A DNA stretch of 64,000 nt from Mycobacterium sp. BK086 (GTDB lineage: Bacteria; Actinomycetota; Actinomycetes; Mycobacteriales; Mycobacteriaceae). Below, piece after piece: positions 25,869-63,897 of the stretch (position 1 is its first letter; each line of letters begins with the position of its first letter). Both the position numbers and the translations under genes were made by a program. The DNA is taken from positions 2,069,526 through 2,133,525 of the forward strand of contig SNWL01000003.1 in assembly GCA_004362315.1 (NCBI GenBank), given 5' to 3'. Below the pieces are notes generated by a model, which worked only from the letters and a program-made list of their open reading frames with translations, did not search any database and was not told the origin of the DNA.

Positions 25869-28192
25869 AGCTTGGTCAGCGGTGCGTGGTTGTGCATCAG
25901 TTTGACCCGCCCGGCACTGCCGAAATCGATCAGTGACATCGCCGACTCCCCCATCCCGGACACCTCCTCGACGCGGCCGAGACCGTACTTGTCGTGGCTG
26001 ACACGGTCACCCGGTTCGAGAACCAACAGCGGGCGCTTGCTCGCACCGGCCGAACGCATCGGCGAGGGCCGCGGCGTACCGAACCGGCCCGCCCCGCTGA
26101 CCGGCGCACTGGGCGACGGCGCGGTATCGGTACGACGCCAGTCGAGGAGATGCTCAGGGATCTCGCGCAGGAAGCGGGATTCGGGGTTGAGCATCGGCTG
26201 GCCCCACGATGAGCGGACCTTGGCGCGGGTGAGGTAAAGCCGTTGGCGCGCACGGGTTATGCCCACATAGGCCAGCCGGCGTTCCTCGGACAGCTCGGTC
26301 GGATCGCCGAGGGCGCGCATGTGCGGGAACATGCCGTCCTCCCAGCCGGTGACGAAAACCACCGGAAATTCCAGACCTTTGGCGGTGTGCAGCGTCATCA
26401 TCGTGACGACTCCTGCGCTGTGTTCGGGCAGCTCGTCGGAGTCGGCCACCAGCGACACGCGCTCCAGGAACTCGGCGAGCAGCCCGGTCTGCGGCACGTC
26501 CTCGTCGACCTCGGCATCGTCGGCCAGCGCCGCGGCGTTGGCCCGGTCGATACTGAATTCGTGTGCGACGCTGACCAGTTCGTTGAGGTTGTCCAGGCGG
26601 GCCAGATCCTGCGGGTCACTGGAGGATTCCAGTTCGTTGCGATAGCCGGTGCGGTCCAGCACCGCCTCCACCAGATCGCCGAGCTCGTCGTCGAGTTTGC
26701 CGCGCAGCTCGTCGAGCAGGTTGACGAAACTCGCGATCGCCTTCTCCGAGCGGGTGTTCAGCATCGGCACCTTGCCCGCGGCCGCGGCCACCAGCGCGTC
26801 GGCGAATGTGGCGCCGGTGTTTTCGGCGTACACCGCCACGCACGCCTCGGCCCGGTCCCCGATCCCGCGGCGCGGGGTGTTGAGGATGCGGCGCAGACTG
26901 ACGGCGTCCCCGGGGTTGTCCAGCACCCGCAGGTAGGCGACGATATCGCGAATCTCCTTGCGCTCGTAGAACCGAACGCCGCCGACCACCTTGTACGGAA
27001 TGCCGGCGCGGATGAACACCTCTTCCAGTGAGCGCGACGAGTTGTTGGTGCGGTAGAACACCGCGACGTCGTTGTAGGTGGTGTCGCCGCGGTCGGCCAG
27101 GGCGTCGATCTCCCCCGCCACGAACCGGGCCTCGTCGTGCTCGTTGTCGGCGACGTAGCCGACGATCAGCTCGCCGTCACCCTCATCGGTCCACAGCCGC
27201 TTCTCGCGCCGGTTGGCGTTGCGCGAGATGACGGAGTTGGCCGCGTTCAGGATGTTCTGGGTGGACCGGTAGTTCTGCTCGAGCAGGATCGTGGTGGCGT
27301 TGGGGAAGTCGCGTTCGAAATCCTCGATGTTGCGGATCGTCGCGCCGCGGAACGCATAGATCGACTGGTCGGCGTCACCTACCACGCACAGCTCGCTGGG
27401 CGGCACCGTGTCGGTGTCCGGGGCGGCGACCCCGACGAGCTCGCGCACCAGCACGTACTGGGCGTGGTTGGTGTCCTGGTATTCGTCGACAAGGACGTGC
27501 CGGAACCGCCTGCGGTAGTACTGGGCGATCTGCGGGAAGTTCTGCAGCACCGCCACGGTCTCGCCGATCAGGTCGTCGAAGTCCAGCGCGTTGGCGGCGC
27601 GCAGCCGGCGCTGGTACTCGCCGAACACGGTCGCGACCGTGCGAGTCAGATCATCGGAGCCCGGCTCGAGGGCGGCCACCGCATCCTCGGGCGCGATCAG
27701 CTCGTTCTTGAGGTTGGAGATCGCGTTGGCCAGCACCCGCGGCGAGTAGCGCTTGGTGTCCAGGCCCATGTCCTTGCCGATCATCAGCAGCAGGCGGCGC
27801 GAGTCGTCGGCGTCGTAGATCGAGAAGTTCGAGTTCAGCCCGGGCAGCAGCGAGGCCTGATTGCGCAGGATCCGCACACAGGTGGAGTGAAACGTCGACA
27901 CCCACATGTTGCGGGCCCGCGGCCCGACCAGCGTGACCACCCGCTCGCGCATCTCGGCGGCGGCCTTGTTGGTGAAGGTGATCGCCAGCACCTGACCCGG
28001 CCCGACATCGCGCGCCGCCAGCAGATAGGCGATCCGCCGGGTCAGCACCGCGGTCTTACCCGACCCGGCGCCGGCCACGATCAGCAGTGGGGGCCCCTCG
28101 TGCAGCACGGCCTGGCGCTGCTGCGGGTTGAGGCCCTCGAGGAGTTCGGCCGCATCGGCCGGAGGTTGGAAATCGGTCACGTGCACACTCAT
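25865..28192 (-). CDS. pcrA: UvrD1/PcrA superfamily 1A DNA helicase
   Basis: This 775-residue helicase has Walker A AGAGSGKT at residues 40-47, Walker B VLVDEYQDTNHAQY, GDADQSIYAFRGA (motif III), and VTMMTLHTAKGLEFPVVF (motif V). A C-terminal Tudor-like region ends VSHDKYGLGRVEEVSG, the RNA-polymerase-binding module of PcrA/UvrD. It unwinds DNA in repair and, in mycobacteria, is known to work with Ku, which is also encoded in this window (52037-52936). Synteny matches Rv0949. Transcription probably starts about three bases before the ATG. Confidence 0.97.
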   Translation of the reverse strand: MSVHVTDFQPPADAAELLEGLNPQQRQAVLHEGPPLLIVAGAGSGKTAVLTRRIAYLLAARDVGPGQVLAITFTNKAAAEMRERVVTLVGPRARNMWVSTFHSTCVRILRNQASLLPGLNSNFSIYDADDSRRLLLMIGKDMGLDTKRYSPRVLANAISNLKNELIAPEDAVAALEPGSDDLTRTVATVFGEYQRRLRAANALDFDDLIGETVAVLQNFPQIAQYYRRRFRHVLVDEYQDTNHAQYVLVRELVGVAAPDTDTVPPSELCVVGDADQSIYAFRGATIRNIEDFERDFPNATTILLEQNYRSTQNILNAANSVISRNANRREKRLWTDEGDGELIVGYVADNEHDEARFVAGEIDALADRGDTTYNDVAVFYRTNNSSRSLEEVFIRAGIPYKVVGGVRFYERKEIRDIVAYLRVLDNPGDAVSLRRILNTPRRGIGDRAEACVAVYAENTGATFADALVAAAAGKVPMLNTRSEKAIASFVNLLDELRGKLDDELGDLVEAVLDRTGYRNELESSSDPQDLARLDNLNELVSVAHEFSIDRANAAALADDAEVDEDVPQTGLLAEFLERVSLVADSDELPEHSAGVVTMMTLHTAKGLEFPVVFVTGWEDGMFPHMRALGDPTELSEERRLAYVGITRARQRLYLTRAKVRSSWGQPMLNPESRFLREIPEHLLDWRRTDTAPSPSAPVSGAGRFGTPRPSPMRSAGASKRPLLVLEPGDRVSHDKYGLGRVEEVSGMGESAMSLIDFGSAGRVKLMHNHAPLTKL

Positions 28193-28201
28193 GTCCGCCC
28201 C

Positions 28202-28224
28202 AACTTACCGCTGTCTGGCGACAG
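28202..28224 (-). promoter_or_regulatory. Promoter of pcrA with partial PafBC-type element
   Basis: On the minus strand CTGTCGCCA is followed after exactly eight bases by TAAGTT, then GGGGCGGAC and the ATG. The mycobacterial DNA-damage promoter consensus is TTGTCRGTG-N8-TANNNT. The TGTCR core, the spacing and the -10 agree, but the last three bases of the upstream box do not. Confidence 0.4.
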
Positions 28225-28229
28225 TTTTT

Positions 28230-28259
28230 TTGCGAAGCACGCCTTCGGAGTGGCACACT
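28230..28259 (+). promoter_or_regulatory. Promoter of the chorismate mutase leader
   Basis: TTGCGA (28230-28235) and CACACT preceded by TGG (28254-28259) are 18 bases apart. The expected transcription start is 28266, exactly the GTG of the leader peptide, giving a leaderless message. Confidence 0.5.
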
Positions 28260-28265
28260 CGATTC

Positions 28266-28328
28266 GTGCTTTCTCCGCAGCGTCGATTTTTCTACGGGTA
28301 CCGGTTCGCGGTGCCCGTGGGTATCTAG
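28266..28328 (+). CDS. Phe/Tyr-rich leader peptide of chorismate mutase attenuator
   Basis: A 20-codon frame GTG...TAG encodes a peptide with RRFFYGYRF in its centre: codons 8-14 are Phe, Phe, Tyr, Gly, Tyr, Arg, Phe. Five aromatic residues in seven is what a ribosome-sensing attenuator for Phe/Tyr supply would use. There is no strong ribosome site, but the GTG coincides with the predicted transcription start. The stop lies 13 bases before a GC-rich hairpin. It is too short for family comparison, so identification rests on content and context. Confidence 0.6.
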   Translation: MLSPQRRFFYGYRFAVPVGI

Positions 28329-28374
28329 CTGCTCAACCCGAGAGCCCCGCGGTCCGCAACCGGATCCGGGGCTC
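28294..28374 (+). promoter_or_regulatory. Transcription attenuator: pause hairpin, antiterminator and terminator
   Basis: Three competing pairings are visible. 1:2 pairs 28294-28303 with 28309-28318 (10 pairs, one of them G-U, GTTCG loop) and covers leader codons 10-18. 3:4 pairs GAGCCCCG (28342-28349) with CGGGGCTC (28367-28374), followed by a partly T-rich GTCTCTTGTGT. A 2:3 alternative pairs CGCGG (28307-28311) with CCGCG (28347-28351) and GGGT (28319-28322) with ACCC (28336-28339). A ribosome stalled on the aromatic codons would break 1:2 and favour 2:3. The rest of 28193-28435 holds no other gene. Confidence 0.55.
28342..28374 (+). terminator. Attenuator terminator hairpin
   Basis: An 8-bp all-matching stem GAGCCCCG/CGGGGCTC with a 17-base loop, 13 bases after the leader stop and 62 bases before the chorismate mutase start. 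The following tract is only moderately T-rich. Confidence 0.5.
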
Positions 28375-28435
28375 GTCTCTTGTGTGAGGCCCGGGACCGA
28401 CGAAGACCTGACCCACACATGAGGAGAACGAAGCG

Positions 28436-28708
28436 ATGACTCTGGAAATGGTTCCTGAAGCCGACAACGACATCGACAGCCTGCGCGGCGAGATCGATCA
28501 GCTCGACGCCACGATCCTGGCTGCGGTCAAGCGCCGGACCGAGGTGTCCCAGGCGATCGGCCGCGCCCGGATGGCCTCCGGCGGCACCCGCCTGGTCCAC
28601 AGCCGTGAGATGAAGGTCATCGAGCGCTACAGCGAGCTCGGCCAGGACGGCAAGGACCTCGCAATGCTGCTGCTGCGCATGGGCCGCGGCCGGCTAGGCC
28701 ACTCTTAA
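28436..28708 (+). CDS. Chorismate mutase, intracellular AroQ-delta type (Rv0948c-type)
   Basis: The 90-residue all-helical protein matches the AroQ-delta length and pattern: DIDSLRGEIDQLDATILAAVKRR, then the charged EVSQAIGRARM, and a short C-terminus GRGRLGHS. It converts chorismate to prephenate, the branch point to Phe and Tyr. In M. tuberculosis this small enzyme is weakly active alone and is stimulated by the DAHP synthase, with feedback by aromatic amino acids. GAGGAG lies nine bases before the ATG. The leader upstream suggests control by Phe/Tyr supply. The stop overlaps the convergent acyltransferase by four bases. Confidence 0.95.
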   Translation: MTLEMVPEADNDIDSLRGEIDQLDATILAAVKRRTEVSQAIGRARMASGGTRLVHSREMKVIERYSELGQDGKDLAMLLLRMGRGRLGHS

Positions 28709-30735
28709 CGCACGGCGTCCAGTAGCCACGGGGTCATCCACTTGACCGCGTTCGGCGTCGGGTGCACGCCATCGATGCGCACCTGCACGCCGTTGATCTT
28801 GTTGGTGTAGCTGCCGTTCGGCCCGAGCTTCTTGTTCAGGTCGAGCACAGTGACATTCTTGCGATCGGCTACGACCCTGCGCAGCAAGGCATTCCACTGG
28901 TCGACCCGGCTGGACTGGTCTTCGGGATACAGGTTGCCGTTCGCCTGCTCGCCGTGCCGGCTGTAGGGCTCGGTGGTCACCACCACGAGCGCCCCGGTCG
29001 AGCGCAGGATGTCCAGCGCGTGCCGCAGCTCGCTCTCCAGGTACTTGTCGAAATCGGGCTGGCCGATATGGGCCCAGTTGCCATTCCGCTTGCGGTCGAC
29101 CACTTCCCAGCGGCCGATCATCATCAGCACCACGTCGGGCTTGTCGTAGGCGATGCGCTGAGCCCAGCGCTCGGGCCACGCGTCACACTCGGGTTTCTGC
29201 TCCAGGCTCTGCCCGGAGTACCGGTACGGCCCGCCGCGCACCAGCCCGCAGCCGATCGTGGTGCGGTCCAGGAACGTGATCCCGGGGGTGGGCGGCAGGT
29301 AGCGCATCACGGTCCACCCGATGGAGTCGCCGAACACCGAGACCGTGTGCTGGCGCGGGCCCGTGTGCGAGGGCGCCGCGGCCCGCACCGTTTCCACCGG
29401 CGCGACCAGCGCCGCCTGGGTGATGTCGGGGCTCGACGGATCGATGCGGGTTCCGATCGGCACGACGGCGACCGCGACGGCGACGGCCGTGGCCATCGTG
29501 GCGGCAGCCAGCCGCAGCTGCGGGACGTGTACCGGACGCCAGCGCCGGATCGGCCGCTCGATCAGCCACCACGATCCGGCCGCCACGGCCAGCGTGACCG
29601 CACAGCGGGCGCCGAACAGCCCGTAACCACTCCACCCGGTCCGCTCGCCGGTGAGGATCAGGAAGATCGGCCAGTGCCAGAGGTAGACGCCATAGGAGAT
29701 GACGCCCAGTGCCACCAGCGGCGGGGTGGACAGCACCCACGCCACCGGCCCGTTCTGCTCGAGCGCGACGCCCGCGATCACCGCGACCGCGGCGACGGCG
29801 ACGACGATCAGCAGGCCGTTGCGGAACTCCGCGGCGCTGCCGGTCGCAACGTGTGTGATCGCCGCCAGCACGGCCACCCCGGCCAGCGGCACGCCGCCGG
29901 CCAGCCAGCGGACCCACCGCGACCGGATCGACGGCCAGCCCGCCACCATCGCCGGCCAGTCCCGCACCAGCAGCGCCGCCGCGGCGGCACCGATGAGCAG
30001 CGCCTGAGCGCGAGTGTCGGTGCCGAAGTACACCCGGTTCAGCGAGTCGTCATCGGCCATCAGGATCGCCTCGGCCGCCGAGCCCGCCGTCCCCACCACC
30101 GCGAGCGCGAGCACCGCCCACCGGACCGCGTTGATGGTCGGGGTCTTCTTGCGCCAGCGAGCGATGACCGCGAGCAGCACCGCCACCGCGACGATGAGCA
30201 CCGGCCAGATCAAGTAGTACTGCTCTTCGACGCCCAGCGACCAGGTGTGTTGCAGCGGCGACGGCGTGGCGCCCTGACTAAAGTAGTCGGTCTGGTGCGA
30301 GACGAACGCCCAGTTCGCCACCCACAGGAACGCGGCGACCGCGTCGTCGCGCAGGCCGCTGACGGCGTCGGGCGGGAACAGGATCCGCGCGGCGATCACC
30401 GCGAGCACCATGATCAGCAGGGCGGGCAGCAGGCGGCGGGCGCGCCGCACCCAGAACGAGCCGAGGTCGAGCTTTCCGGTCCTGCCGATCTCGTCGAGCA
30501 GCAATGACGTGATCAGGAAGCCGCTGAGCACGAAGAAGATGTCGACACCGATGAATCCGCCTGCGACACCTGGGATCCCGCCGTGACCGATCAGTACGAG
30601 TGCGACGGCAACACCACGGATCCCGTTCAGCGCAGGTATGCCCTCACCGCGCGGCTTCGGCCGGCGCAGCTGGCTCGACTGCGAGACGGGATCAACCCAT
30701 GGACTTTGCGCCCACAAGCGCGCCGTCACTCTCAT
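28705..30735 (-). CDS. Membrane acyltransferase (OafA family) with C-terminal SGNH domain
   Basis: Residues 30-400 form an Acyl_transf_3 membrane domain with about ten hydrophobic segments. It has the signature GFIGVDIFFVLSGFLITSLLL and RRARRLLPALL. After a final membrane segment the C-terminal 240 residues form a periplasmic SGNH hydrolase domain with VFGDSIGW and DGVHPTPNA (Ser and Asp-His of the active site). Such proteins O-acetylate or acylate cell-wall sugars or lipids. The ATG at 30735 (MRVTARLW) follows AGGAGGAC; an upstream TTG start at 30774 is possible. The acceptor is unknown. Confidence 0.88.
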   Translation of the reverse strand: MRVTARLWAQSPWVDPVSQSSQLRRPKPRGEGIPALNGIRGVAVALVLIGHGGIPGVAGGFIGVDIFFVLSGFLITSLLLDEIGRTGKLDLGSFWVRRARRLLPALLIMVLAVIAARILFPPDAVSGLRDDAVAAFLWVANWAFVSHQTDYFSQGATPSPLQHTWSLGVEEQYYLIWPVLIVAVAVLLAVIARWRKKTPTINAVRWAVLALAVVGTAGSAAEAILMADDDSLNRVYFGTDTRAQALLIGAAAAALLVRDWPAMVAGWPSIRSRWVRWLAGGVPLAGVAVLAAITHVATGSAAEFRNGLLIVVAVAAVAVIAGVALEQNGPVAWVLSTPPLVALGVISYGVYLWHWPIFLILTGERTGWSGYGLFGARCAVTLAVAAGSWWLIERPIRRWRPVHVPQLRLAAATMATAVAVAVAVVPIGTRIDPSSPDITQAALVAPVETVRAAAPSHTGPRQHTVSVFGDSIGWTVMRYLPPTPGITFLDRTTIGCGLVRGGPYRYSGQSLEQKPECDAWPERWAQRIAYDKPDVVLMMIGRWEVVDRKRNGNWAHIGQPDFDKYLESELRHALDILRSTGALVVVTTEPYSRHGEQANGNLYPEDQSSRVDQWNALLRRVVADRKNVTVLDLNKKLGPNGSYTNKINGVQVRIDGVHPTPNAVKWMTPWLLDAVR

Positions 30736-63824: not shown

Positions 63825-63897
63825 GCCCCCGTAGCTCAGGGGATAGAGCACGGCTCTCCTAAAGCCGGTGTCGCAGGTTCGAATCCTGCCGGGGGCA
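63825..63897 (+). tRNA. tRNA-Arg, anticodon CCT
   Basis: A complete 73-base cloverleaf. Acceptor GCCCCCG (63825-63831) pairs with CGGGGGC (63890-63896). Other parts are the D arm GCTC/GAGC, anticodon stem CGGCT/AGCCG with loop CTCCTAA, and T arm GCAGG TTCGAAT CCTGC. The anticodon CCT lies at 63858-63860. CCA is not encoded. It reads AGG codons. Confidence 0.96.

Follow-up and report, generated by a model that had tools for sequence, protein, structure and literature searches.

A probable phenylalanine/tyrosine attenuator ahead of the chorismate mutase gene in mycobacteria

Results

We analyzed a stretch of 64,000 nucleotides from Mycobacterium sp. BK086 (contig SNWL01000003.1; hereafter the window), in which a short leader frame with Phe and Tyr codons and a set of RNA hairpins precede the gene for chorismate mutase. 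A first-pass annotation had proposed that this element is a Phe/Tyr attenuator, and our results favor that proposal. The presumed target gene was correctly named, since the product of 28436-28708 is a type II chorismate mutase (Pfam CM_2; NCBIfam equivalog) whose nearest solved structure is Rv0948c (PDB 2qbv). The gene downstream of the leader acts in the synthesis of the amino acids presumed to be sensed, its enzyme supplying the precursor that Phe and Tyr share. The features of the locus are as follows.

28230-28235, forward strand: -35-like hexamer TTGCGA, 18 nucleotides before the -10-like hexamer.
28254-28259, forward strand: -10-like hexamer CACACT, 6 nucleotides before the GTG; RNA start site presumed.
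28266-28328, forward strand: leader frame of 20 codons, VLSPQRRFFYGYRFAVPVGI and a stop, starting with GTG; codons 8-14 read FFYGYRF.
28287-28301, forward strand: sensor codons Phe8, Phe9, Tyr10, Gly11 and Tyr12, kept in 122, 102, 111, 122 and 113 of 127 distinct elements, respectively.
28277-28281 (GCAGC) with 28328-28332 (GCUGC), forward strand: outer closing helix, paired in 82-97% of cells in 80 aligned leaders.
28291-28321, forward strand: stem 1:2, arms 28291-28303 with 28309-28321, from the fold and from covariation across the order.
28308-28311 with 28354-28357 and 28315-28321 with 28346-28352, forward strand: predicted antiterminator 2:3, from the fold of 80 leaders.
28342-28374, forward strand: stem 3:4, presumed to be the terminator; arms 28342-28349 with 28367-28374, then 28351-28356 with 28361-28366.
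28373-28386 with 28416-28431, forward strand: putative helix of the terminator tail, containing the ribosome-binding sequence GAGGAG (28421-28426).
28436-28708, forward strand: chorismate mutase of AroQ type, orthologue of Rv0948c.

The 20-codon frame with its aromatic core, as first annotated, is present and lies far above chance. The genome has a single site whose DNA encodes FFYGYR (none for the reversed control), FFYGY with one mismatch has an expectation of 0.00 in the window, and the covariance model R1, which was built from 80 distinct leaders, returned one strong match and one at E 0.08 when run on the BK086 genome. Among the 127 distinct elements, F8, F9, Y10 and Y12 are all present together in 91. 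Conservation of the aromatic codons holds for these four positions but not for codon 14, which is Phe in just 8 of the 127. The Phe8 codon is TTT in 119/127 elements, whereas the three neighbouring genes use 3 TTT against 39 TTC. We also observed that CGA TTT at 28284-28289 is nearly invariant ahead of the sensor codons and that both of its codons are rare in those three genes (CGA in 1/130 CGN codons, TTT in 3/42 Phe codons).

The distance from the start codon to CGATTT is divisible by three in 117 of 118 leaders, and this keeping of the frame is comparative evidence that the leader may be translated. The single exception (L029) reflects a second -10-like match, and with the other -10 its frame is open. 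The spacing from stop codon to hairpin is spread over all three phases (38/35/25). Taken as comparative evidence, these patterns indicate that selection maintains the leader as a reading frame, and that it acts on the RNA beneath as well. Towards its N terminus, the peptide differs among relatives in both length and sequence.

The position of CACACT 6 nucleotides before the GTG, with TTGCGA 18 nucleotides further up, predicts an RNA start at or near the GTG, and the leader mRNA is thus probably leaderless. The motif CA[CG]ACT followed by GTG after 6-7 nucleotides was found at 103/110 chorismate mutase loci, each carrying the aromatic core itself or one of its variants; the loci were located by protein search, and the remainder comprised 4 without a call and 3 with a shortened frame. 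TTGCG[AC] was seen again at the -35-like position when the relatives were read.

For the RNA of 28266-28390 the predicted folding energy is -67.1 kcal/mol (z -6.54), a value that none of 200 shuffles attained (0/200). The GC-rich hairpin at 28342-28374 begins 13 nucleotides past the leader stop, as had been annotated. The hairpin noted inside the peptide-coding region (28294-28318) is likewise real, and its full predicted stem is the longer stem 1:2 listed above. For comparison we aligned 80 mycobacterial leaders (106 rows minus 14 duplicates, 2 distinct shortened leaders, 5 with unusual tails and a further 5 duplicates). Stem 1:2 is paired in 96.1% of cells and stem 3:4 in 94.0%, compared with 36-45% for slid versions of the structure; in stem 1:2, both partners have changed at four of the pairs. 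In an order-wide set of 40 leaders, hand-picked for spread, stem 1:2 is paired in 94.3% of cells. Double changes occupy 13 cells there, compared with 1.6 in shuffled and 0-8 in slid versions, and the covariation is 0.179 against 0.080.

An alternative pairing of segments 2 and 3 had also been proposed. It is complementary in the window, but the inner part of that pairing depends on a GGGT at 28319-28322 that just 12/80 aligned leaders possess, and the GGGT-based pairing can therefore be ruled out as a general antiterminator. The helix that we predict instead (GCGG with CCGC, CCGUGG with CCGCGG) opens the predicted fold, taken from segment 2 to before segment 4, in identical form in 47/80 leaders, and variants of it do so in some others. 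Helix 2:3 is paired in 96% of cells across the 80 leaders and in 35-58% when slid.

The switch was simulated with a ribosome mask of 26 nucleotides, a footprint as in PMC13236596, on transcripts ending before segment 4 is made. In silico, helix 2:3 dominates with the ribosome at F8 in 69/80 leaders, at F9 in 77/80, at Y10 in 78/80 and at Y12 in 49/80, compared with 4/80 without a ribosome and 2/80 with the ribosome at the stop codon. When the linker and segment 3 were shuffled, 2:3 dominated in 95/400 cases. Mutually exclusive 1:2, 2:3 and 3:4 pairings are thus found both in silico and by comparison, with no double changes in the 2:3 helix. With 2:3 predicted in 78 of 80 leaders when the ribosome is held at Tyr10, and with the element conserved among relatives (see below), the translation-sensing attenuation originally suggested is very probably right.

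Regarding termination, a GC stem is present, the tail behind it is U-poor in the window, and U-tracts follow the hairpin in other genera, the latter statement resting on leader sequences read by eye. The tail may have another partner. Among 72 downstream regions, 41 were folded after near-duplicates and regions with a doubtful chorismate mutase start had been left out, and in 39/41 of these mycobacterial folds the terminator tail can pair with the stretch before the start codon of the gene, at energies hardly below those of shuffles (mean z -0.8). CTGTTG tails are accompanied by a downstream CAACAG in 14/20 cases and other tails in 0/84, a count that covers the 104/148 regions that could be parsed and is uncorrected for relatedness. 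From these folds, the tail helix may form a second, translational layer or may be only a spacer.

As the first-pass annotation had suggested, the regions upstream of orthologues were compared, and the element proved to be conserved, with codons and frame kept and stem 1:2 covarying. In an even sample of the genus, R1 matched 136/148 genomes at E 0.1, one match lying elsewhere in its genome. In the same 148 genomes, the regions upstream of chorismate mutase contain the element in 135 (75/80 plus 60/68), within about 420 nucleotides of the gene in 134 of these and at 1.4 kb in the remaining one (L248), where it looks as if something had been inserted between leader and gene. The 135 elements include decayed copies; 127 of them are distinct and were aligned by stem, with no demand on the codons. 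The chorismate mutase protein of M. tuberculosis had no identical match among the 396 genomes searched.

In 12 of the 13 genus genomes that were without the element, reading of the sequence revealed that the whole unit is lost, and the 13th has a truncated unit. After loss of the whole unit, the promoter region is still the same one, and a short way behind it chorismate mutase starts at a GTG or in a fused frame. The genomes with the whole leader unit deleted are L019, L169, L176, L213, L221, L222, L239, L259, L260, L261, L263 and L265. Some other genomes show a decayed frame (e.g. RFICGC) or an altered or missing hairpin.

Beyond the genus, R1 matched 84/201 genomes of the family at E 0.1, with E 1e-6 or better in 6/30 genera. 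Six leaders read from other genera retain RFFYGYR(T/P)PVPV, and five of them have at least four U after the hairpin; no such frame was present at 10/16 chorismate mutase loci fetched from other genera. Four loci of another genus in the family (L120, L123, L125 and L127) have chorismate mutase without an FFYG frame and a different, conserved-looking upstream region. Within the order, 97/199 genomes had a match at E 0.001. Twenty of these 97 were fetched, drawn from eight other families, and in all 20 leaders a short frame that includes both Phe and Tyr codons (one or more of each) lies ahead of a chorismate mutase gene, identified in 18 by the chorismate mutase of the window and in 2 by more distant chorismate mutase proteins and Pfam. 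A wider model, R2, matched 29/196 genomes of the class. Among its 18 loci outside the genus, 16 precede chorismate mutase and 2 precede DAHP synthase; in these distant class members (L303, positions 1501-1693, and L308, reverse strand) the same kind of Phe/Tyr leader was seen. A similar leader with FTYG occurs in one further genus, with genomes of 6-11 Mb. This distribution suggests that the element is probably old.

Discussion

We hypothesize that the element attenuates transcription in a ribosome-mediated manner and so adjusts the level of chorismate mutase to how much charged tRNA-Phe and tRNA-Tyr is available, and we assign this reading a probability of roughly 85%. It is built upon the observed parts and their conservation, the keeping of the frame, the covariation of stem 1:2 and the predicted switch; from these we infer the start site, translation of the leader, termination and the response to amino acids. 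According to our hypothesis RNA polymerase would start at or beside the GTG at 28266, and a ribosome would load on the leaderless mRNA. When Phe and Tyr are plentiful, this ribosome would reach the stop codon and cover segment 2, leaving segments 3 and 4 to pair (28342-28374) and transcription to stop. Under a shortage of Phe (or Tyr), it would wait at codons 8-10, perhaps 12, and cover segment 1. Segment 2 (28308-28321) would then be free to pair with segment 3 (28346-28357) while segment 4 is still to be transcribed, and the polymerase would continue into the chorismate mutase gene. Without translation, 1:2 and 3:4 would form and chorismate mutase would stay mostly off.

However, several of our results weigh against this hypothesis. 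No sigma-70 consensus promoter was found by a simple consensus scan of 28150-28720, and a simple scan of the same region did not call the hairpin at 28342-28374 terminator-like, because its tail is U-poor, as it is in mycobacteria. Double-change cells among the mycobacterial leaders number 9 compared with 3-20 in slid versions, and within mycobacteria it is consequently the pairing itself that carries weight. Helix 2:3 has no double changes, and its covariation is no higher than in shuffles. Once the transcript is complete, 3:4 is always the favored structure at equilibrium, and the choice must therefore be kinetic and made during transcription. Finally, 13/148 genomes of the genus are without the element, and several carry decayed copies.

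The U-poor tail also invites a different explanation, namely that the mycobacterial leader acts mainly on the translation of chorismate mutase or via Rho/NusG, with the hairpin a weak terminator and the helix between tail and ribosome-binding region part of the switch. The frequent pairing of the tail with the stretch before the start codon (39/41 folds) and the co-occurrence of CTGTTG tails with CAACAG (14/20 against 0/84) are both in line with such a mode of action, and mycobacterial cysteine leaders are termed translation attenuators in PMC13236596. We nevertheless consider it unlikely. The tail helix lies outside the choice between 2:3 and 3:4, and it is not obvious how it would be opened by a stalled ribosome; the folds containing it score barely better than shuffled sequences (mean z -0.8), the co-change in 104/148 regions is uncorrected for relatedness, and U-tracts follow the same hairpin in relatives.

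Two further explanations do without attenuation by a stalled ribosome. Strong conservation of the peptide core would be expected if the frame encoded a trans-acting small peptide, or merely fed ribosomes to the next gene, with the hairpins being incidental. This we regard as very improbable, given that RNA pairing is conserved separately from the peptide, that synonymous RNA positions are kept (e.g. TTT at codon 8 in 119/127), that the element is placed before genes of the Phe/Tyr pathway, and that the N-terminal part of the peptide is variable. A strongly structured RNA before an amino-acid gene might also suggest a riboswitch or T-box that binds a metabolite or tRNA in place of a sensing ribosome. 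At gathering scores Rfam gave nothing for the leader, the one match in the window being a tRNA (63825-63897), and conservation tracks the reading frame with its Phe/Tyr codons, which leaves this the least credible of the explanations considered.

Attenuation of this kind is already known, and what we consider new is the chorismate mutase case in actinobacteria, notable for the depth of its conservation and its probable leaderless start. The aroR leader of Corynebacterium glutamicum has a leaderless start, and the pheL leader of Escherichia coli has a ribosome-binding site. The C. glutamicum AroR leader (Phe-Tyr-Phe) attenuates the DAHP synthase operon, and with it the first step of the aromatic pathway, on Phe limitation (PMC11802643, citing Neshat et al. 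2014), and Tyr supply is without effect on aroR-aroF (PMC11802643). Like the leader in the window it is an actinobacterial leader peptide with Phe/Tyr codons at the aromatic pathway, but it precedes the DAHP synthase gene aroF whereas ours precedes chorismate mutase. The pheA gene of E. coli resembles our case in that the gene attenuated, here by the Phe-rich leader peptide pheL, has chorismate mutase activity (PMC11802643). It differs in being gamma-proteobacterial, in encoding a fused chorismate mutase-prephenate dehydratase and in responding to Phe only.

Within mycobacteria, the ilvB1NC attenuator of M. tuberculosis, with branched-chain codons and a 166-nucleotide leader containing a U-tract, is backed by reporter evidence (PMC13236596). 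It shares with our element an upstream open reading frame with regulatory codons and a terminator/antiterminator choice; the chorismate mutase leader, in contrast, is predicted to begin with its open reading frame and is proposed from sequence comparison. The polycysteine leaders are leaderless short frames before amino-acid operons, and ours probably resembles them in this. They are described as having Cys codons near the stop and no conserved terminator hairpins and as acting by translational attenuation (PMC13236596, PMC9094748, PMC1262725), whereas the leader peptide in the window is without Cys.

A survey of actinobacteria from 2005 reported that operons for phenylalanine and tyrosine are not preceded by conserved RNA structures (PMC1262725), and the chorismate mutase leader runs against that statement. 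Among the eight leader peptides listed in a study of Streptomyces lividans, neither Phe nor Tyr is represented (PMC8079986). The words chorismate, Rv0948c and phenylalanin are absent from the 2026 paper on attenuation in M. tuberculosis, where the legend to Extended Data Fig. 5 names no genes (PMC13236596). We found no report of a chorismate mutase attenuator in actinobacteria in the open-licence literature, a scope that excludes subscription papers and supplements.

Mycobacterial chorismate mutase is described as being regulated through the complex that it forms with DAHP synthase. With a conserved leader, expression of the gene would also respond to amino acids, at the point where an essential pathway branches towards Phe and Tyr. 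The hypothesis predicts exact positions for signals in 5'-end, 3'-end and ribosome-profiling data, and the dozen species with the whole unit deleted offer a natural comparison. More speculatively, an ancient family of actinobacterial Phe/Tyr attenuators might guard the entry to the synthesis of Phe and Tyr, mostly at chorismate mutase and in some lineages at DAHP synthase. Mycobacteria would have added a translational layer in which, after read-through, the tail of the terminator forms a new helix with the ribosome-binding region, such that one leaderless leader would gate both transcription and translation. We regard this extended scheme as rather unlikely.

Between the divergent uvrD-like gene and the chorismate mutase promoter lies a short hairpin followed by a T run (28210-28225), which was the sole terminator-like site called in 28150-28720.
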